Origin: Callipepla californica brunnescens
Lineage: Eukaryota > Chordata > Aves > Galliformes > Odontophoridae
Assembly: GCA_023055505.1 (NCBI GenBank)
Contig: JALIRH010000049.1
Location: 3,410,001-3,474,000 of the forward strand
Reading direction: 5' to 3'
Length of the DNA stretch: 64,000 bases
Positions 822 to 62,662 of this stretch are shown in pieces; the stretch's first letter is position 1; every line of letters begins with the position of its first letter. Position numbers and translations under genes: made by a program. The notes beneath the pieces were generated by a model. The model was not told where the DNA came from, made no database searches, and worked only from the letters and a program-made list of their open reading frames with translations.

Positions 822-1373
822 TGTCAACGGTTTACCGGAATGGGTCGGCACGGTTCCGCGACCATTGGTGTGGGGGACCCACGGCCCAGGAAAGGGGAAA
901 GGGAAAAGGGAGATGGGCCTAGGGACAAAGCAGCGGCAACGATCTGAGGAGGAAAGCTAATTCACTAAATAAGATCTCAGGCAGCAAAATGACACAATCT
1001 AATACGATCTAATTGGAATTGAGGCTAATGAATCAAATAAAATGAGCAAGAGAATGTCTGATAAACCGAAGGCCTTATGCTAACGCTGAAAGCGAACGGC
1101 AGCGAGCACCCACTGCCGAGTGATCCCGAAGGAAAGAGAGCATCCCGTGACACACGAGCAGTTGATATCTTTTCCTCTGAGCAGAAAATACGTAAAAATA
1201 CAAAGCATCGCACAGTGCTCTGGGGAATGGAGTTCTTCTCTTCTGGGACAGGTACACCCATAACTACTGATGATCCGCGGAGCTGGAGCCCTGACTCTTT
1301 GACTCTTCATGCACTCCATGATGTTACGATGTGGAATACCAATGCCCCAAAATCATAAAACCGTGGCACACAC
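817..1373. other. Degenerate 5-bp target-site duplication around solo LTR
   Basis: CACGC at 817-821 and CACAC at 1369-1373 flank the TG...CA ends of the solo LTR. One mismatch is expected after long neutral decay. The 5-bp length agrees with the perfect duplication around the insertion at 9779-10024, so this family's integrase probably makes 5-bp staggers. Confidence 0.55.
822..1368 (-). repeat. Solo LTR of the same ERV family
   Basis: Read on the minus strand, this starts with TG, follows the U3 text of the ERV1 5' LTR (the TTTTATGATT start, the TATTCCACAT block, the TCCATTCCCCAGAG block, the AGCGTTAGCATAAGGCCTT block) and ends with CCGTTGACA. It has no internal retroviral sequence on either side, so it is a solo LTR, the usual product of recombination between the two LTRs of one provirus. 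The 5-bp flanks are CACGC (817-821) and CACAC (1369-1373), matching at four of five bases, which fits an aged target-site duplication. It has the long-form U3 (with the CCAGCTCC-GGATCAT segment) shared with the 5' LTRs of ERV1 and ERV2. The TATA-like stretch of the other LTRs has decayed here. Confidence 0.88.
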
Positions 1374-2675: not shown

Positions 2676-2769
2676 TAGCTTGGTTGGTAGGGATAGTGGT
2701 GTGAGGATGGTTGGACTAGATGATCTTCTAGGTCCTTTCCAACCTCATGAATCTATGAATCTATGAATC
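1763..2769 (+). mobile_element. CR1 LINE fragment, 5'-truncated, complete 3' end
   Basis: The sequence enters CR1 ORF2 within the reverse transcriptase palm and runs to the CR1 3' UTR and tail. The 3' UTR contains the usual GGTTGGACTAGATGATCTTC block followed by CCTTTCCAACC. The element ends in a short 8-bp repeat (ATGAATCT units) at 2747-2769, the typical end of CR1. CR1 is the dominant LINE of birds and is usually 5'-truncated as here. The tail runs directly into the 18-bp satellite with no spacer. Confidence 0.93.
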
Positions 2770-5700
2770 AGTGTTGCCACAGGGATCAATGGGGCCACAG
2801 GGATCAATGAAGCCACAGGGATCAATGGGGCCATAAAACTCAGTGGGGCCATAGGAATCAATGAGCCCATAGGAATCAATGGGGACATAGGGAACAATGG
2901 GACCATAGGAATCAACGGGGCCATAGGAATTAATGGGGCCATAGGGATCAATGGAACCATAGGAATCAATGGGGCCATAAGAATCAATGGGGCCGTAGGG
3001 ATCAATGGGGCCATAGGGATCAAAGGGGCCATAGAACTCAATGGTGCCATAGGGATCAGTGGGGCCATAGCAATCAATGGGGCCATAGAGATTAATGGGG
3101 ACATAGGGATCAATGGGGCCATAGGGATCAATTTGTCCATAGGGATCAATTGGGCCATAGAACTCAATGGGGCCATAGGAATTAATGGGGCCATAGGAAT
3201 CAATGGAGCCATAGAAATCTATGGGGCCTTAGGGATCAATGGGGCCATAGAACTCAATGGAGCCATAGGGATCAATGGGGCCATAGGGATCAATGAGGCC
3301 ATAGGAATCAATGGGACCATAGGGATCAATGGGACCATAGGGATTAGTGGGACCATAGGAATCAGTGGGGTCATAGGAATCAAAGGGGACACAGGGATCA
3401 ATGGGGCCGTAGGGATCAATGGGGCCATAGGAATCAATGGTGCCATAGGAATCAATGGAGACATATAACTCAATGGGGCAATAGGGATCAATGGAAGCCT
3501 AGGAATCAATGGGGCCATAGAACTCAATGGGGCCATAGGAATCAATGAAGCCATAGGAATCAATTGGGTCATAGGAATCAATAGGTCCATAGGAATCAAT
3601 GGGGACTTAAGGATCAGTGGGGCCATAGGAATCAATGGGGCCATAGGGATCAATGGGGCCATAGGGATCAATGGGGCCATAGGGATCGATGGGAACATAG
3701 GAATCAATGGGAACATAGGAATCAATGGGGCCATAGGGATCAATGGGGCCATAGGGATCAATGCTGCCATAGAACTCAATGGGGCCATAGGTATCAATGG
3801 GGCCATAGGGATCAATGGGGCCATAGGGATCAATGGGGCCATAGGGATCAATGGGGCCATAGGGATCAATTGGGCCATAGAACTCAATGGGGCCATAGAA
3901 CTCAAAGGGGTCAAAAAAATCAATGGGGCCATAGGAGTCAATGGGGCCATAGAACTCAATGGGGTCAGAGAACTCAATGGGGCCATAGGGATCAATGTGG
4001 CCACAGCGATCAATGGGGCCATAGGACTCAATGGGGCCATCGGGATCAATGGAGCCACGAGGATCAATGGGGCAATAGGAATCAATGGGGCCATAGGGAT
4101 CAATTGGGACATAGGAATAAGTGAGGCCATAGGAATCAGTAAGGCCATAGAACTCAGTGGGGCCATAGGGATCAATGGGACCATAGGAATCAATAGGGCC
4201 ATAGGAATCAGTGGGGCCATAGGAATCAATGGTGCCATAGGGATCAATGGGGCCACAGGAATCAATGTGGCCTTAGGGATCAATAAGGCCATAGGAATCC
4301 ATGCGGCCATAGAACTCTGTGGGGCCATAGGGATCAATGGGGCCATAGGAATCAATTGGGCCATAGGGATCATTGAGGCCATAAAGATCAATGGGGCCAT
4401 AGGGATCAATGGGGCCATAGGGATCGATGGGAACATAGGAATCAATGGGAACATAGGAATCAATGGGGCCATAGGGATCAATGGGGCCATAGGGATCAAT
4501 GCTGCCATAAAACTCAATGGGGCCATAGGTATCAATGGGGCCATAGGGATCAATGGGGCCATAGGGATCAATTGGGCCATAGAACTCAATGGGGCCATAG
4601 AACTCAAAGGGGCCAAAAAAATCAATGGGGCCATAGGAGTCAATGGGGCCATAGAACTCAATGGGGTCAGAGAACTCAATGGGGCCATAGGGATCAATGT
4701 GGCCACAGCGATCAATGGGGCCATAGGACTCAATGGGGCCATCGGGATCAATGGAGCCACGAGGATCAATGTGGCAATAAAAATCAATGGGGCCATAGGG
4801 ATCAATAGGGACATAGGAATAAGTGAGGCCATAGGAATCAGTAAGGCCATAGAACTCAGTGGGGCCATAGGGATCAATGGGACCATAGGAATCAATAGGG
4901 CCATAGGAATCAGTGGGGCCATAGGAATCAATGGTGCCATAGGGATCAATAGGGCCACAGGAATCAATGTGGCCTTAGGGATCAATAAGGCCATAGGAAT
5001 CCATGCAGCCATAGAACTCAATGGGGCCATAGGGATCAATGGGGCCATAGGGATCAATGGGGCAATAGGAATCAATGGGGCCATAGGGATCAATGGGGCC
5101 ATAGGAATAAGTGGGGCCATAGGAATCAGTGGTGCCATAGAACTCAATGGGGCCGTAGGGATCAATCGGGTCCCAGGAATCAATGGGGCCTTAGGAATCA
5201 ATGGAGCCATAGGAATCAATGGAGCCTTAGGGATCAATTTGGCCATAGAACTCAATGGGGCCATAGGGATCAATGGGGCTATAGGGATCAATGGGGCCAT
5301 AGGGATTCATGCGGCCATAGAACTCAATGGAGCAATAGGGATCAAAGGGCCATAGGGATCCATGGGGCCATAGAACTCAATGGGGCCATAGGGATCAATG
5401 GAGCCATAGGGATCAATGGTGCCCCAGGAATCAATGGCGCCATAGAAATCAATGGGACCATATGGATCGATGGGTCCATAGGAATCAATGGGCCCATAGG
5501 AATCAATGGGGCCATAGGGATTAATGGGGCCATAGGTATCAATGAGGCCATAGTCATCATTGTGGCCATAGGGATCAATAGGGCCACAGTGATCAATGGG
5601 ACTATAGGAATCAATGGGGTATAGGGATCAATGGAGCCATAGAACTCAATGGGGCCATAGGGATCAATGGGGCCACAGGAATCAGTGGGGCCATAGAACT

Positions 5701-5863
5701 CATAGGGGCCATAGGAATAAATGAAACCATAGGAATCAATGGGGCCATAGCAATCAATGGGGCCATAGGAATCAATAGGGCCATAGGGATCAATGGGGCC
5801 ATAGGGTTCAATGGGGCCTTAGTAATCAATGGGACCATAGGAATCAATGGAGCCATGGAACTC
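2767..5863 (-). repeat. 18-bp satellite, block 1 (minus orientation)
   Basis: About 172 tandem monomers. On the plus strand they read ATCAATGGGGCCATAGGG, the reverse complement of the block 2 monomer. The three common variants are the same as in block 2: GGGATCAAT, GGAATCAAT and GAACTCAAT at the variable end. The first monomer (2767-2784) is diverged and overlaps the CR1 tail. The last one is cut at GAACTC directly before the TG of the ERV1 LTR. Because 18 is a multiple of three, very long open frames occur on both strands (693 codons at 3219-5300 on the minus strand, 452 codons at 3997-5355 on the plus strand). They encode hexapeptide repeats only and I do not call them genes. Confidence 0.97.
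3640..5075. repeat. Tandem duplication of about 0.7 kb inside block 1
   Basis: A stretch with distinctive monomers (ATCGATGGGAACATAGG, CTCAAAGGGG, GGGGTCAGAGAAC, CCACAGCGATC, GAATCCATGC) occurs twice, starting near 3640 and near 4378. The spacing is 738 bp (41 monomers) at the left end and 702 bp (39 monomers) from about 3870/4572 onward. The first copy carries two extra monomers. It is a local segmental duplication, with differences such as CATAGAACTC versus CATAAAACTC. Confidence 0.85.
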
Positions 5864-6422
5864 TGTCATGGTTTTATGATTTTTGGTACTGGTATTCCAC
5901 ATCATAACATCATGTATTTCATTAGGAGTTAAAGAGCTAATACTCCAGCTCCATAGATCATTGATAATTCCAGGTATACCTGCCTCAGAAGTGAAGAAGA
6001 TCTCCATTCCCCAGAGGACTTTGCGATGCTTTGTATTTTTACGTGTTTTCCACTCAGAGGGAACAGATAAAAACCCTCAGCAGTCACGGGACGCTCTCTT
6101 TCCTTCAGGATCGACTCAGCAGTGGGTGCTCGCTGCCTTCTCGCCTTCAGCGTTAGCGTAAGGCCTTCGGTTTATCGGACACTCTCTCTTGCTCATTCAT
6201 TAGCCTCAATTCCAATTTTATTGTATTATATTGTGTTATTTTACTTTCTGATATCTTATTTAGTAAACTAGCCTTCCTCCTCAGACCATTGCCGCTGTTT
6301 TGTTTCTGGGCCCATCTCCCTTTTCCCTTTTTTCCCTTCCCCTTTCCTGGGGCGTGTGTTCGTGGCTCCCCCGCACCAATCGTCACGGAACCGGGCCGAT
6401 CCAGCCCGGTGAACCGTTGAAA
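5864..6422 (+). repeat. ERV1 5' LTR (long U3 subtype)
   Basis: It starts TGTCATGG right after a satellite monomer broken at GAACTC, and ends at a degraded TGAAA where the ERV2 copy has TGACA. It shares with the ERV2 LTR and the solo LTR a U3 segment of about 60 bp (near 5937-6000) that the 3' LTR of ERV1 lacks. A GATAAAAA promoter-like element and a conserved GCGTTAGCGTAAGGCCTTCGG block follow. A 10-bp gap relative to ERV2 lies near 6205. I cannot place the U3/R/U5 borders, as no AATAAA signal is evident. Confidence 0.93.
6066..6073 (+). promoter_or_regulatory. TATA-like element in ERV1 5' LTR
   Basis: GATAAAAA lies about 200 bp into the LTR. The same string occurs at the equivalent place in the 3' LTR (12826-12833) and the ERV2 LTR (62290-62297), embedded in a conserved GGAACA...CCCTC context. 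Position and conservation fit a Pol II TATA box. There is no direct evidence of transcription. Confidence 0.5.
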
Positions 6423-6426
6423 TTTT

Positions 6427-6444
6427 TGGCGCCCAACGTGGGGC
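6427..6444 (+). other. ERV1 primer-binding site, tRNA-Lys type
   Basis: TGGCGCCCAACGTGGGGC lies five bases after the LTR and is complementary to the 3' end of tRNA-Lys (the Lys1,2 type used by betaretroviruses and many ERVK elements). It would prime minus-strand DNA synthesis. Confidence 0.9.
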
Positions 6445-7336: not shown

Positions 7337-7998
7337 CTGACAATCAGACCCTCCAGACCGAGAGAGATACCCTCCAGACCGAGAGAGACGCCTTCCAGTC
7401 TCAACAAGAAGCTCTCCAGACCAACATGGATGCCCTCCAGACCGAGAGAGACGCCCTCCGGTCTCAACATGATGCTCTCCAATCCAACATGGACGCCCTC
7501 CAGACCGAGAGAGACGCCCTCCAGACCGAAAGAGACATACTCCAATCCGAGAGAGACGCCCTACAGTCTCAACATGATGCCCTCCAATCCAAACTCAATA
7601 GCCCTCAGTCTCAACAAGATGCCCTCCAATCTGAGCGAGGTGCCCTCCAATCTGAATTAGATGCCCTCCAATCTGAGCGAGACTCCCTCAAAACTGAGCA
7701 AGATGCCTACCAATTTACATTACTCCGTTTCCAAAATGAACTAATCCATGTTCGGGCTCAACAAGTCAGGCTCCAAGGTGAACTAAATTTTGTCACAGCT
7801 GAACGAGATGGACTTCGAGCCGAGCTAGAGAAGATGATCATTAATTCTAACCAATATGATCAACCACAGGTGACACCAGAATCGATGTCAGTTGCCCCTG
7901 TAAGAGGGCGGAAAATGAAAAAAGTCTCGATGCCCTTAACAGAGAAGAAAGAGGAGGAGCTGAGAGTGGAAGAAGCAGATTCTGAAAGGGAAGAGTAG
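7300..7998 (+). pseudogene. ERV1 gag heptad-repeat (coiled-coil) segment
   Basis: Readable from just after the frameshift near 7300 to a stop at 7996-7998. From about 7336 to 7720 the protein is a seven-residue repeat of the form LQxERDA, giving a long charged helix. It is followed by a less regular helix to about 7840, then SVAPVRGRKMKKVS (about 7888-7929) and an acidic tail. The SVAPV-basic stretch has a clear counterpart in ERV2 (SVAPVEGKKWKRVS), so this is the same Gag region. The heptads themselves are almost absent from ERV2. A further frameshift near 7993 separates this part from the capsid; the other frame continues with VEESD, also found in ERV2. Confidence 0.78.
7336..7720 (+). repeat. 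21-bp coding minisatellite in gag
   Basis: Tandem 21-bp units around CTCCAGACCGAGAGAGAC(GCC), about 18 copies with variants that change ACCGAGAGA to TCTCAACAA/T or TCCAACATG. Because 21 bp equals seven codons, each unit is one helical heptad. Copies in the middle are more alike than those at the 3' end (7620-7720), as expected for slippage or unequal exchange. Confidence 0.88.
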
Positions 7999-9141
7999 AG
8001 GAATCAGACGCTGCAAGAGAGGAGGAGAAAATAGGTCCAGAGAGGTTGTTTAAGACTTCAGACTTTCCATCAGGAGGGCTGAGACACCCCACAAGATTAC
8101 AGTCACCAACACCTAGGAGGGCAATGAGTTCTGATAGAGTAGAAGATGAAAGGGAGGTTATTACCGATGTTACTCGACCTATGAAAATGAATGAAATTCG
8201 AAGTTTGAGAAAAGACTTTACACGCCACGCAAATGAACCTGTTGTCACCTGGTTACTACGCTGTTGGGACAGTGGGGCCAACTGTATGGCTAGATGGTAA
8301 TGAAGCTCGCCAATTGGGTAGCATTGCCAGGGACTCTGCCATTGACAGAGGCATTAGTACATGCCACAATAGACCCTTCACTCTCTGGAAGCGGATGCTG
8401 ATATCTGTGAAAGAAAAATACCCCTTCAGAGATGATCTGTTGCCTGAGAAAAAGAAATGGTCTGATATGGAAAAAGGCATAAATTATATGAGAGAATATG
8501 CTGTAGTGGAAATGTTACATGACCCTGCATTCGTTCACGATGAACCAGACCAAGAGCATGATCCTGAGAGAATCAGGTGTACACCAGTTATGTGGCGTAT
8601 ATTCACAAGAACTGCACCAGACAGGTATGCCAGTACATTAGCAGCAATGTATGGCAGAAGACAAAGAAGACCCCTTATAAATGTCTTGATTAACAGACTT
8701 CAAAACACTGAGTTACATTTAACTCCTCTATGAGCTTACGTCTCAGCCTTTGCAAAGGTAACCGAAAGACTGGACAGAATGGAGAGCAATCAAGAAGATA
8801 TAATGGACGAACTGGCTACGCTTAATTCTGATGAAACTGATGGATCTGATGAGAACGAGGATTCCCAAAACAGCAACATCTCAGCTATCAAAAGAGGACG
8901 TTCTCCTGCTCGAAGAAGTGTCAACAGTAAAACTATATCACGTACTGCCCTGTGGCGTTATCTACGTGACCAGGGGGAAGATATGAAGAAGTGGCATAAG
9001 AAACCCACTTCTGCCCTTCAGGCACGTGTAAAACAGTTACAAAATAGGTCAACCACCAGGGTGAACTTCTCCAAGAAGGTGACTGCTCCAGTGATTGCCG
9101 GATATGGCAGTAGCCGTAGAGTCAACAGAGGTAACATATAG
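7993..9141 (+). pseudogene. ERV1 gag capsid and basic C-terminal region (broken)
   Basis: After the frameshift near 7993, one frame runs to 8300 and holds the capsid start (RPMKMNEIRSLRKDF and TWLLRCWDSGAN). A second frameshift near 8280 moves to the frame of 8233-8733 with EARQLGSIARD, LWKRMLISVKEKYPFRDD and an APDRYAS segment. An in-frame TGA at 8731-8733 interrupts it. The same frame is open again to 9141, giving a helical acidic linker (about 8780-8870) and a lysine/arginine-rich tail. Capsid identity rests on position before pro-pol and on the matching segment in ERV2; the aligned part shares TWLLRCWD.GAN and EARQLG.IARD. The tail has no cysteines, so the zinc knuckles of most retroviral nucleocapsids are missing. 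Confidence 0.75.
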
Positions 9142-9500
9142 AGCGGCCCTGCCCCCAGCCAGGGGGGGGGGAAAGGGATAACAGAGTGTATTGGACTGTG
9201 TGGATTCGATGGCCTGGCACATCAGAACCACAAAAATATAAGGCATTGGTGGACACTGGTGCACAGTGCACTCTAATGCCCTCAAGTCACCAAGGGACAG
9301 AATTAATCTATATTTCTGGGGTGACTGGGGGTTCCCAAGAGCTGACCAAGTTGGAGGCTGAAATAAGTCTCACTGGTAAAGACTGGCAAAAACATTCTAT
9401 TGTGACTGGCCCAGGGGCTCCATGTATACTTGGTATTGATTACCTCAAAAGGGGATATTTTAAGGATCCCAAAGGGTATCGATGGGCTTTTGGAATAGCT
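9135..9500 (+). pseudogene. ERV1 aspartic protease region
   Basis: The frame opens after a stop at 9132-9134, six bases before the gag stop, and is -1 relative to gag, as in many retroviruses that reach pro by frameshifting. No convincing slippery heptamer is visible in the short overlap, and a ten-G run at 9162-9171 may have changed length. The catalytic motif is LVDTGA with the aspartate at 9252-9254. The GAPCILGIDYL segment (about 9414-9446) resembles the C-terminal ILG motif of retropepsins. There is no stop before reverse transcriptase, so protease and RT form one frame. No dUTPase is present. Confidence 0.82.
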
Positions 9501-9778
9501 GCTGTGGGCGCAGATAACACTAAGCAGCTGTCTGCTTTGCCTGGCCTGTCAGAAGATCCGTCTGTTGTGGGGTTGCTACAAGTGAAGGAGCAACAGGTAC
9601 CGATTGCTACAAAAACGGTGCACAGACGGCAGTACCGCACCAACAGGGATTCCTTGCTCCCCATTCATAACCTGATGCGTCAGCTAGAGAGCCAGGGAGT
9701 GATCAGCAAAACTCACTCCCCGTTTAACAGCCCCATATGGCCAGTGCGTAAAGCCAATGGAGAATGGAGGTTGACGGT

Positions 9779-10024
9779 TGTCATGGTTTTATGATTTTTG
9801 ATACTGGTATTCCACATCATAACATCATGTATTGCATTGAGAGTTAAAGAGCTAATGCTCCAGCTGCATGCTGGGTATACCTGACCGGGAATCGAACCCG
9901 GGCCGCGACCGTGAGAGCGCCGGCTCCTAACCACTAGACCAAGAGCAATAGCTCTTTAACTCTCAATGCAATACATGATGCTATGATGTGGAATACCAGT
10001 ATCAAAAATCATAAAACCATGACA
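9779..10024. mobile_element. Palindromic LTR-end mini-element carrying a tRNA-Glu-like core
   Basis: A 246-bp insertion in ERV1 RT. The first 82 bases (9779-9860) are the left end of the ERV family LTR, from TGTCATGG to the GAGTTAAAGAGCTA block. The last 82 bases (9943-10024) are an inverted copy that differs at two positions. The left arm goes on with further LTR text (CTCCAGCTGCAT and GGTATACCTG, with a gap of about 18 bases relative to the ERV1 LTR). It switches to tRNA sequence at a shared CCTG. On the right side the switch is abrupt. Both ends are therefore U3-type ends, unlike a normal LTR (U3 left, U5 right). With TG...CA ends and a 5-bp duplication, it was most likely integrated in trans by an integrase of this family. 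Confidence 0.9.
9878..9948 (-). pseudogene. tRNA-Glu(CTC)-like sequence, acceptor stem lost
   Basis: On the minus strand an A box (TGGTCTAGTGG), a D arm, an anticodon loop CTCTCAC with anticodon CTC (plus-strand 9913-9915), and a T arm with CCGGG/CCCGG stem and B box GGTTCGATTCC follow in order and at tRNA spacing. This matches vertebrate tRNA-Glu. The acceptor stem pairs at only about three of seven positions, because its 5' strand is replaced by LTR sequence. The anticodon stem has a G-G mismatch next to the loop and a G-T pair. It should not give a working tRNA, but the internal Pol III promoter boxes look intact. Confidence 0.9.
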
Positions 10025-11240
10025 ACGGTAGATTACCGTGGCCTGAACGAAGTCACACCTCCACTGAGTGCTGCTGTGCCGGACATGCTTCAACTCCAGT
10101 ATGAACTGGAGACAAAAGCAGCCAAGTGGTATGCCACCATTGACATTGCCAATGCCTTCTTTACAATTCCTCTGGCCACAGAATGCAGGCCACAGTTTGC
10201 CTTCACCTGGAGAGGCGTTCAGTACACCTGGAACCGTTTGCCCCAGGGGTGGAAGCACAGCCCAACCATTTGCCATGGGTTGATCCAAACTGCATTGGAA
10301 CAGGGCGGCGCTCCTGAGCACCTGCAGTACATTGATGACATCATTGTGTGGGGCAATACAGCAGGGGAAGTTTTCGAGAAAGGAGAGAGAATAATCCAGA
10401 TCCTCCTGCGAGCTGGCTTCGCTATTAAACGAAGCAAAGTAAAAGGGCCTGCACAGGAAAGTCAGTTCCTAGGAATAAAGTGGCAAGATGGACGTCGTCA
10501 CATCCCAACAGATGGGATTGACAAAACCATTGCTATGTCTCCACCCACCAGTAAGACAGAGCCAAGCTTTTCTGGGTGTAGTGGGCTTTTGGAGAATGCA
10601 TGTTCCAAACTACAGCCTCATTGTGAGCCCCCTTTATCAGGTGACCTGGAAGAAGAATGATTTTGTGTGGGGTCCTGAGCAGCAGCAGGCTTTTGAGCAA
10701 ATGAAGCAGGAGATAGCCCGTGCCGTGGCCCTGGGGCCAGTGCGGACGGGACAGGATGTAAAGAACATCCTCTACACTGCTGCTGGAAAGGAAGGTCCCA
10801 CTTGGAGTTTGTGGCAAAGAGCTTCTGGAGAGACCCGAGGCCGACCCCTTGGTTTCTGGAGTCGAGCATACAGGGGGTCTGAGGAGCGCTACACTCCAAC
10901 TGAGAAGGAGATCTTAGCCACGTATGAGGGGGTTCGAGCTGCTTCCGAAGTAATCGGTACCGAAACGCAGCTCCTTCTGGCACCTCGACTGCCAGTGCTG
11001 AATTGGATGTTTAAAGGAACAGTTCCCTCTACCCATCATGCTACTGATGCCACTTGGAGTAAGTGGATTGCGCTGATTACACAGCGAGCTCGGATGGGGA
11101 ACCTCAGTCATCCAGGAATCCTAGAAGTGATCATGGACTGGCCTGAAGGTAAAAAGTTTGGAACAACACCAGCAGAGGAGGTGTCACATGCTAAAGAAGC
11201 CCCACCATATAATGAACTAACAGAAGATGAAAAGAGATAC

Positions 11241-12672: not shown

Positions 12673-12683
12673 AAGGGGTGGAA
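12673..12683 (+). other. ERV1 polypurine tract
   Basis: AAGGGGTGGAA lies directly before the TG of the 3' LTR. A purine run at this position primes plus-strand DNA synthesis in retroviruses. One T interrupts the run. Confidence 0.75.
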
Positions 12684-12947
12684 TGTCGTGGTTTTATGAT
12701 TTTTTGGTACTGGTATTCCACATCATGGCATCAGGTGGTGCATTGGGAGTCAGGGAGAACTACATTCCCCGGAGGACTTTGCAATGCTTTCTATTTTTTC
12801 ACGTGTTTTCCGCTCAGCGGGAACAGATAAAAACCCTCTGCAGTCACGGGACGTTCTCTCTCTTTCCTCTAGGATCACTTAGGAGTGGGTGCTCGCTGCC
12901 GTCCGCCTTCAGCGTTAGCGTAAGGCCTTCGGTTTATCGGGCACTCA

Positions 12948-13002
<55 letters not shown>

Positions 13003-13243
13003 CTCATTTTGTTTGATTATTGGGCTTAATTCCAAATTGAATTACATTATATTGTGTTATTTACTTCCTGATGTCTTATTTAGAAAATTAGATTTTCCCC
13101 CTCAGATCGTTGCCGCTGTTTTGTTTTGGGGCTTATCTCCCTTTTTTCCCTTTCCCCCTTCCCCCTGTCCGGGGTGTGGGCCTGTGGGTCTCCTACCTTG
13201 GTTGTTGCGGGGCCGGGCCTAGCCAGCCCACAAACCCCTGACA
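12684..13243 (+). repeat. ERV1 3' LTR (short U3 subtype)
   Basis: It starts TGTCGTGG and ends CCTGACA. It aligns with the 5' LTR but lacks about 60 bp of U3 (5' LTR near 5937-6000), reads CATGGCATCAGGTGGTGCATTGGGAG where the others read CATAACATCATGTATTGCATTAAGAG-like text, and has an expanded CT run. TATA-like GATAAAAA is at 12826-12833. It is less like its own partner than that partner is like the ERV2 LTR. Confidence 0.93.
12955..12999. repeat. (CT)n microsatellite in ERV1 3' LTR
   Basis: About 22 uninterrupted CT dinucleotides, where the other LTRs have only CACTCTCTCTTGCTC. It is a lineage-specific expansion and useful as a length marker. Confidence 0.95.
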
Positions 13244-13248
13244 GGACA

Positions 13249-62087: not shown

Positions 62088-62662
62088 TGTCATTGTTTTA
62101 TGATATTTGGTACTTGTATTCCACACCATAACATCATGTATTGCATTAAGAGTTAAAGAGCTAATACTCCAGCTCCATAGATCATTGATAATTCCAGGTA
62201 TACCTGTCTCAGAAGAGAAGAAGCACTACATTCCCCAGAGGACTTTGTGATGCTTTGTATTTTTACGTGTTTTCCGCTCAGAGGGAACAGATAAAAACCC
62301 TCTGCGGTCACGGGACGCTCTCTTTCCTTCGGGATCGACGCAGCAGTGGGTGCTCGCTGCCGTATCGCCTTCAGCGTTAGCGTAAGGCCTTCGGTTTATC
62401 GGACACTCTCTCTTGCTCATTTTATTTGATTCATTAGCCTCAATTCCAATTATATTGTATTATATTGTGTTATTTTACTTTCTGATATCTTATTTAGTAA
62501 ATTAGCTTTCCTCCTCAGATCGTTGCCGCTCTTTTGTTTCTAGGCCCATCTCCCTTTTCCCTTTTTCCCTTTTCCTTTCCCCTTTCCTGGGGCGTGGGTC
62601 CGTGGGTCCCTCGCACCTGTCGTCGCGGAGCCGGGCCGATCCAGCCCGGTGAATCGTTGACA
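62088..62662 (+). repeat. ERV2 5' LTR (long U3 subtype)
   Basis: Starts TGTCATTG and ends CGTTGACA. It carries the U3 segment from CTAATACTCCAGCTCC to TACCTGTCTCAGAAG that is shared with the ERV1 5' LTR and missing from the ERV1 3' LTR. This is the best preserved of the LTRs here and serves as reference for the ends TGTCA...TGACA. Confidence 0.95.
62290..62297 (+). promoter_or_regulatory. TATA-like element in ERV2 5' LTR
   Basis: GATAAAAA in the same context as in both ERV1 LTRs, downstream of GAGGGAACA and upstream of CCCTCTGCGGTCACGGG. Probable core promoter of the LTR, inferred from position and conservation only. Confidence 0.5.

Follow-up and report, generated by a model that had tools for sequence, protein, structure and literature searches.

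A dispersed tRNA-Glu-like repeat family in a quail genome with inverted retroviral U3 sequences at its ends

Within the window (the whole 64,000-nucleotide stretch of Callipepla californica brunnescens DNA analyzed here), the reverse transcriptase (RT) region of an endogenous retrovirus (ERV) is interrupted by a 246-bp sequence belonging to a repeat family with copies dispersed through the source genome. Its members occupy separate insertion sites and share a tRNA-Glu-like core; their right-hand joins vary, some have captured RNAs there, and the two retroviral U3 arms of a copy match each other. The family is probably SINE-like, parasitizing an endogenous retrovirus where other SINEs use a LINE and renewing its U3 ends from this helper. 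With less assurance, we lean toward a broader reading, namely, that it represents a class of element passed on solely as a small Pol III RNA core, which retakes both termini from retroviral U3 plus-strand DNA at every transposition and has long kept pace with its helper across a succession of several U3 lineages.

Anatomy and insertion of the element

The sequence-only reading had described an insertion of 246 bp with TG...CA ends and a perfect ACGGT duplication, and each of these features is exact: positions 9779 to 10024 form a 246-bp near-palindrome that begins with TG, ends with CA, and is flanked by the 5-bp sequence ACGGT at 9774 to 9778 and again at 10025 to 10029. The order of its parts is U3(1–91), 4 nt, GGTATACCTG, antisense tRNA-Glu, AGAGCAATAGC, and U3(82–1, inverted), the last of which overlaps the AGAGCAATAGC piece; apart from a little U3-derived sequence, the arms enclose the tRNA core alone. 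The left arm (U3 1–91 in sense orientation, 9779 to 9869, plus strand) matches the U3 starts of window LTRs at 93.4% over 91 nt (LTR at 5864) and at 91.2% (LTR at 62088), and the right arm (U3 82–1, inverted, 9943 to 10024, minus strand) matches the U3 at 5864 at 91.5% over 82 nt. The arms are, as originally read, inverted U3 ends of the resident ERV family, but the identity of 80/82 does not apply to arm against LTR: it is the figure for arm against arm, in that 9779 to 9860 and 9943 to 10024 differ at 2 of 82 positions (97% over 87 nt in the arm-to-arm repeat comparison).

The left arm extends beyond 82 nt, U3 1–91 being followed, after a short deletion relative to the LTRs, by GGTATACCTG. 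Because GGTATACCTG lies deeper inside U3 in the window LTRs, the insert's left arm therefore carries a small U3 deletion. GGTATACCTG abuts the tRNA-Glu within the presumed acceptor stem, with CCTG common to LTR and tRNA, and the right arm meets the other tRNA end at U3 position 82. The insert contains no U3–R–U5 LTR, only U3 1–91, a few nucleotides of U3 near position 115, and U3 82–1; its arms are inverted, and a repeat search found no direct repeat family in 9700 to 10100.

The tRNA-Glu(CTC)-like core (9880 to 9941, minus strand) is truncated at both acceptor ends and contains motifs that we take to be a B box (GGTTCGATTCC, 9888 to 9898, minus strand; GGTTCGA[TG]TCC is exact in 62 of 89 core rows) and an A box (TGGTCTAGTGG, 9931 to 9941, minus strand; exact in 72 of the 89). 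At 20.5 bits, its match to the Rfam tRNA model (cmscan, RF00005, minus strand) falls short of the gathering score (29), and ARAGORN called no tRNA in the window. In sister loci, ARAGORN called tRNA-Glu(CTC) in four of seven (one of the others being called tRNA-Gly and two giving no call) and Glu in 5 of 10 of a second set, such that the identity first read from the letters, a tRNA-Glu(CTC)-like core with A and B boxes, is borne out in part of the sister loci. A match of the element to Rfam MIR831 (55.5 bits, with a gathering score of 100) was attributed to the palindrome.

The 246-bp sequence is a genuine insertion into ERV RT. To its left lie the ERV protease and the start of RT (9135 to 9776, plus strand; Pfam gag-asp_proteas, below cut-off), and to its right RT continues (10025 to 10657, plus strand; Pfam RVT_1, E = 1.2e-21); matches to foamy-virus Pol stop at residue 213 in the left flank and resume at residue 215 in the right. 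An empty-site check in orthologous ERV copies, suggested along with the original reading, succeeded at L064, where a relative of the window RT stretch lies beside another family member and has the site uninterrupted. Aligned separately to this locus, the 200-bp flanks of the window fall at 1197 to 1396 and 1392 to 1591 and overlap by exactly 5 bp, which makes it a natural empty site with ACGGT in a single copy. The host RT had been assigned to ERV1; judging from the foamy Pol matches of its RT, the ERV looks foamy/class III-like and not obviously ERV1.

By comparison of LTRs in the window, the resident provirus has a helper-family LTR of U3 lineage V1 (5864 to 6420, plus strand), followed by a primer-binding site (PBS) that we presume to be of the tRNA-Lys type (6427 to 6444, plus strand). 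At the other end, a polypurine tract (PPT), AAGGGGTGGAA (12673 to 12683, plus strand), stands immediately 5′ of the U3 of an LTR of lineage V2 (12684 to 13245, plus strand), and the same motif precedes U3 in L017 and L049. A second helper-family LTR, again followed by a PBS, occurs at 62088 to 62660 (plus strand), and a more diverged one with a V4-like U3 at 824 to 1368 (minus strand). For most of their extent, the LTRs at 5864 to 6420 and 12684 to 13245 resemble each other at only about 71%, and their U3s are of unequal length, so they are not a normal pair, and either recombination or two elements may be involved. Most of the window (about 52 kb; 2765 to 5860 and 13258 to 62087) is occupied by an 18-bp satellite that reads GAATCAATGGGGCCATAG to the left of the provirus and is flipped, to the reverse complement of this, to the right of it, and the gag region contains a tandem 21/63-bp repeat (7349 to 7714).

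Copies across the source genome

We searched one genome, the source genome itself (1.085 Gb in 321 contigs). The 246-bp query gave at least 85 matches (40 of 1,743 candidates were scored), and the 87-nt core gave at least 40 (40 of 150 scored). The family-defining junction, at which U3-derived GGTATACCTG meets antisense tRNA-Glu ACCGGGAATCGAACC (9874 to 9898, plus strand), had 104 genome matches when its pattern was allowed up to three mismatches, versus 0 for the reversed-pattern control. Scans of viral contigs, genome contigs, and plasmids returned no matches, and a phage scan returned weak ones, mostly to phage tRNA genes.

In total, 97 loci were examined, including the window; 5 of the 100 listed junction matches and four others lie outside this sample. 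Eight of these loci have flanks common to another locus (L027, L040, L044 to L047, L083, and L085), and their removal leaves 89 separate sites. Copies were selected by their match to the element, to its core, or to the left junction, so those parts are common by construction, and it is the remainder of each copy that is informative. Seven copies on contigs C60 and C119 (L041, L044 to L047, L083, and L085) have their flanks in common and lie beside CCCTAACCC-like sequence; they have spread by duplication, perhaps in a subtelomeric location. At L023, the 25 bp flanking the element on either side are exact reverse complements, indicative of a larger palindrome or of an assembly fold-back.

At 46 of the 89 sites, a script detected a duplication of at least 5 bp, which is exactly 5 bp in 44 of them (the other two being 6 bp at L034 and a duplication within a run of A at L080). 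Adding L075, L103, and L048 (a 1,794-bp composite that contains L017 and carries a duplication) raises the number of sites with a duplication of at least 5 bp to 49, with 46 different sequences, and one-mismatch duplications are present at five sites (L069, L079, L092, L094, and L099). The family has the TG...CA ends and the constant short duplication typical of retroviral integrase. Further copies of the kind that the sequence-only reading proposed to look for do exist in the source genome, with independent duplications, but not simply as a fixed 246-bp unit.

The 40 sites without an exact duplication, among them the five with one mismatch, weigh against the model set out below. At 10 of them, the left U3 end was not found; at 21, the left end was found but the right end could not be bounded, including L111, which has a U3′ end without a duplication, and L110, which has a U5-like end. 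Both arms are present without a duplication at L014, L019, L021, and L023. L056 and L057 both terminate on the right in AAGAGCA and show a 4-of-5 match to the left flank; it is as though integration had used an end other than U3 that finishes in CA.

Right-hand joins and captured RNAs

The core and the left junction are constant among copies; the right side varies from copy to copy. Right U3 arms range from about 7 to 82 nt, some being preceded by filler. Among the 53 bounded copies, the right arm measures 82 nt in 8, 69 to 71 nt in 16, 65 to 68 or 72 to 75 nt in another 8, and less in 21, several of the short values (L018, L033, and L092) being alignment slips. All 53 have a retroviral U3 end on both sides, except for U5 on the right in L094; this copy and L110 are those whose right side terminates in a U5-like end. 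The recurrent breakpoints at 69 to 71 and at 82 flank GAGCTAATGCTC. On the core side, the right-hand break could be placed relative to the A box in 35 copies: it lies 5 to 15 nt before the box in 21, 0 to 2 nt before it in 11 (in at least 4 of which the core itself is cut), and 18 to 20 nt before it in 3. Many copies diverge inside or just past the corresponding region of the insert (9942 to 9952, minus strand), the putative 5′ end region of a Pol III RNA; given the spread of the breaks, such an RNA start is only a tendency.

The fillers are of several kinds. The pol gene of the window provirus is matched by 8 of 16 right-hand stretches (L064, L066, L071, L078, L082, L084, L096, and L098). L071 and L098, which are unrelated, have fillers from neighboring parts of the ERV protease region (window positions ~9298 to 9370), which is perhaps a favored jump site. 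Read by eye, the filler of L028 is a run of T, i.e., poly(T), and those of L061 and L091 are pieces of the core itself. Other fillers resemble tRNAs or 5S rRNA, the tRNA names being presumed except where ARAGORN or Rfam made the call: L069 and L093 contain tRNA-Cys-like 3′ ends with CCA that are followed directly by U3 (again by eye), and L034 contains a complete tRNA-Ala(AGC). L070 has a complete 5S rRNA (100.8 bits, model positions 1 to 120) that follows, with no intervening base, on a tRNA 3′ half whose last letters are CCA; two T after the 5S, U3 begins from about position 70. CCA is added to tRNAs after their transcription. In L065, a tRNA-Lys-like 3′ half with CCA leads into the PBS and is thereby fused to antisense U5, a join that also points to the helper's primer and agrees with the type of PBS assigned at 6427 to 6444. 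Finally, the copies at L048, L049, and L050 lie within longer composites with pol, PPT, and further U3.

Assortment of arms and cores

Sorted by motif, U3 1–60 of the arms falls into at least six lineages, V1 to V6. The V1 and V2 U3s occur as real LTRs, V4 resembles one (in the window and at L050), and V3 adjoins PPT and pol in L049. Both arms belong to the same lineage in 39 of the 40 copies with both arms classified, a count that leaves out 17 copies with an unclassified arm as well as copies without an arm; in the exception, L018, the arms differ in the length of a T run and share the same unusual base. Over 43 copies, left/right arm differences sum to 75, versus a mean of 204.5 and a minimum of 155 in 5,000 reshufflings, and a copy's own right arm is the closest, or tied for closest, in 35.

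The arms have recombined against the core. All four combinations of core allele and arm lineage are present (A/V1 in 34 copies, C/V1 in 5, A/V3 in 4, and C/V3 in 9), and three sets of identical cores span several arm lineages. On a core tree of 85 of the 89 rows (82 columns; 44 of 63 inner branches open), arm lineage needs 26 changes where 5 would suffice, and well-supported branches force at least five lineage changes each for V1 and V3. With shuffled lineage labels, the mean is 34.2 changes, and none of 200 shuffles needed as few as 26; thus, there is some linkage of arms to core, through either age or inheritance. Median core divergence from the majority is 11.1 to 15.9% for copies with V4 to V6 arms versus 3.7% for those with V1 to V3 arms, which is what one would expect of old copies with equally old helper ends. 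The core is CpG-rich. Its columns 56 and 61, of which one would lie beside the anticodon loop and one at the wobble base of tRNA-Glu, are recurrently variable among arm lineages, perhaps through modified bases that reverse transcriptase copied.

Discussion

The inherited form in our model would be a tRNA-Glu-headed RNA of about 110 nt with a 3′ tail antisense to the helper U3; it is the breaks 5 to 15 nt before the A box, together with the joins at RNA ends, that point to a Pol III RNA. We infer its transcription, packaging, order of strand transfers, and integrase as follows. An integrated copy would be transcribed by Pol III from the A and B boxes of the tRNA, and the RNA would enter helper particles, as is known for tRNAs and 5S rRNA. 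Plus-strand DNA is primed at the polypurine tract and therefore begins exactly at the U3 end; as the junctions suggest, it would stall at about U3 position 70 to 82, switch onto the RNA tail, and copy this tail toward the RNA 5′ end. Stalling at 69 to 71 and at 82 is plausible, since the sequence of GAGCTAATGCTC can fold back. The new 3′ end would then switch, directly or via other packaged RNAs, to another U3 plus strand, and synthesis would run to the exact 5′ end of this second strand, so that U3 DNA would prime synthesis on one side and, on the other, provide the second template. Template switching at RNA ends would be expected to leave joins at complete ends, such as those at CCA, at the 5S 5′ end, and, nearly, at the 5S 3′ end in L070. 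The product, with a U3 end on each side, would be inserted by the helper integrase with a 5-bp duplication. With U3 ends taken from the helper on both sides, each round would keep only the core.

Some results run against this model, the partial linkage of arms and core among them. The A and B boxes are conserved at 92.6% and 95.0%, versus 91.9% for the rest of the core, and show no clear signal of purifying selection across the 89 core rows; also, the expected Pol III terminator is merely TTT. The predicted fold of the putative RNA is unremarkable (z = −1.57) and is not used as evidence. The more general proposal made from sequence, in which two U3 ends enclose a Pol III-type unit and the ERV integrase moves this non-autonomous element in trans, gains support from the many copies, their independent duplications, and the empty site.

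We allow a limited but real chance that the element is instead copied whole, in which case a Pol II read-through transcript or a helper genomic RNA with the complete U3–tRNA–U3′ unit would be reverse transcribed, its arms being inherited with occasional homologous switching to a helper U3. This would account for the matching arms of each copy, for arm lineages that cluster on the core tree more than shuffled labels do, and for the copies inside longer composites (L048, L049, and L050); the agreement between arms is expected here as well and hence cannot, on its own, decide between whole-element copying and replacement of the ends. Such copying fits poorly with right arms of very unequal length that have different fillers and independent duplications, with the pairing of one core allele with different arm lineages and of identical cores with several, and with right-hand breaks that mostly, if not always, sit just before the A box.

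The remaining explanations fare worse. Inverted termini and a nearly constant duplication length would suit a MITE-like DNA transposon whose long inverted ends would have given rise to the LTRs, but the U3 arms switch between LTR lineages, some right arms are about 7 to 12 nt long, the ends coincide with the PPT/U3 boundary, and captured RNAs have CCA ends, making this origin very unlikely. The element termini are the U3 end of the ERV LTRs in the window. An ordinary LINE-mobilized SINE placed by chance next to an LTR sequence would explain the tRNA head with its A and B boxes, but not that 44 of the 46 script-detected duplications are exactly 5 bp or that the 53 bounded copies end in U3 on both sides (U5 on the right in L094); we consider it extremely improbable, and a LINE-type SINE, whose insertions have variable, longer duplications and a LINE-like or A-rich tail, was rejected. 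There is next to no chance that the sequence is a one-time insertion, by the ERV integrase, of an aberrant reverse-transcription product, an option raised from the sequence alone: the anatomy of 9779 to 10024 by itself is compatible with it, but the 104 junction matches and the 89 separate sites among the examined loci reject a one-off insertion. A SINE-like family that draws its ends from an endogenous retrovirus is the reading that we retain.

Searches of an open-access library gave no description of a family of this design, in agreement with the sequence-only reading, and we regard its architecture and the way in which it appears to propagate, as seen in one genome, as new. The nearest known relatives are the Helenus and Cassandra TRIMs. 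The relevant parts of Kojima 2024 (PMC10886601) describe Helenus as TRIMs with tRNA-like LTRs, and Helenus and Ajax as carrying Pol III promoters in ordinary LTRs. Like Helenus as presented there, the quail family is a small non-autonomous element with tRNA-derived A and B boxes, 4- to 5-bp duplications, and a probable dependence on an autonomous LTR element; Helenus, however, has two LTRs, a PBS and a PPT between them, and a tRNA inside each LTR (PMC10886601). The quail family shares the tRNA-like Pol III promoter (by sequence) and the target duplication of 4 to 5 bp with Helenus/TRIMp3 but has two inverted U3 ends in place of direct LTRs, and R, U5, PBS, and PPT are missing in their standard form; without direct LTRs and without a PBS and PPT between them, membership in TRIM/Helenus was rejected. 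Cassandra, in the partial accounts drawn on here, is a plant TRIM with a 5S rRNA promoter in its LTRs and resembles the quail family in that it is small, non-autonomous, and of the LTR type and has a Pol III promoter; there, 5S is a fixed part of the LTR, whereas in the quail family it is captured filler, complete in one locus (L070). Cassandra also has direct LTRs, a PBS, and a PPT.

Likenesses to SINEs are of another kind. tRNA-derived SINEs combine a Pol III-type tRNA head and a helper-related tail with a reverse transcriptase borrowed from another element; their helpers are LINEs, which use target-primed reverse transcription, and SINEs are thought to be tied to them. The quail family shares such a head (the tRNA-Glu core places a Pol III promoter, as recognized by its motifs, at the head of the element), the helper-related tail, and the borrowed reverse transcriptase, but in its ends, duplications, and tail it bears the marks of a retrovirus and of retroviral integrase. 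In LTR-mediated retrocopies, as summarized in part of PMC5408686 from Tan et al., retroviral-type reverse transcriptase alternates between its template and a co-packaged cellular RNA at microsimilarities, integrase inserts the product, and ordinary LTRs are kept around the mRNA copy; the quail family, by contrast, has its U3 ends in inverted orientation and represents a captured RNA that is now dispersed as a family. Retroviruses package tRNAs and 5S rRNA, and host RNAs can be patched into recombinants (PMC4997597, PMC5086612); retroviruses have also been suggested to make pseudogenes of packaged RNAs (PMC4997597). The portions of these two sources that deal with patch insertions and packaged host RNAs describe no self-perpetuating family (PMC4997597, PMC5086612).

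The same Pol III RNAs that founded SINEs are, according to part of one of these sources, packaged by retroviruses (PMC4997597). It is unsettled whether retroviruses mobilize the Pol III RNAs that they package, and the quail family looks like a genomic record of one doing so. Its dozens of integrated copies preserve reverse-transcription products that are normally lost: they would record the sites at which U3 plus strands tend to stall and the RNA ends that are jumped to (CCA ends and 5S ends), and they show how short a U3 end integration may need.
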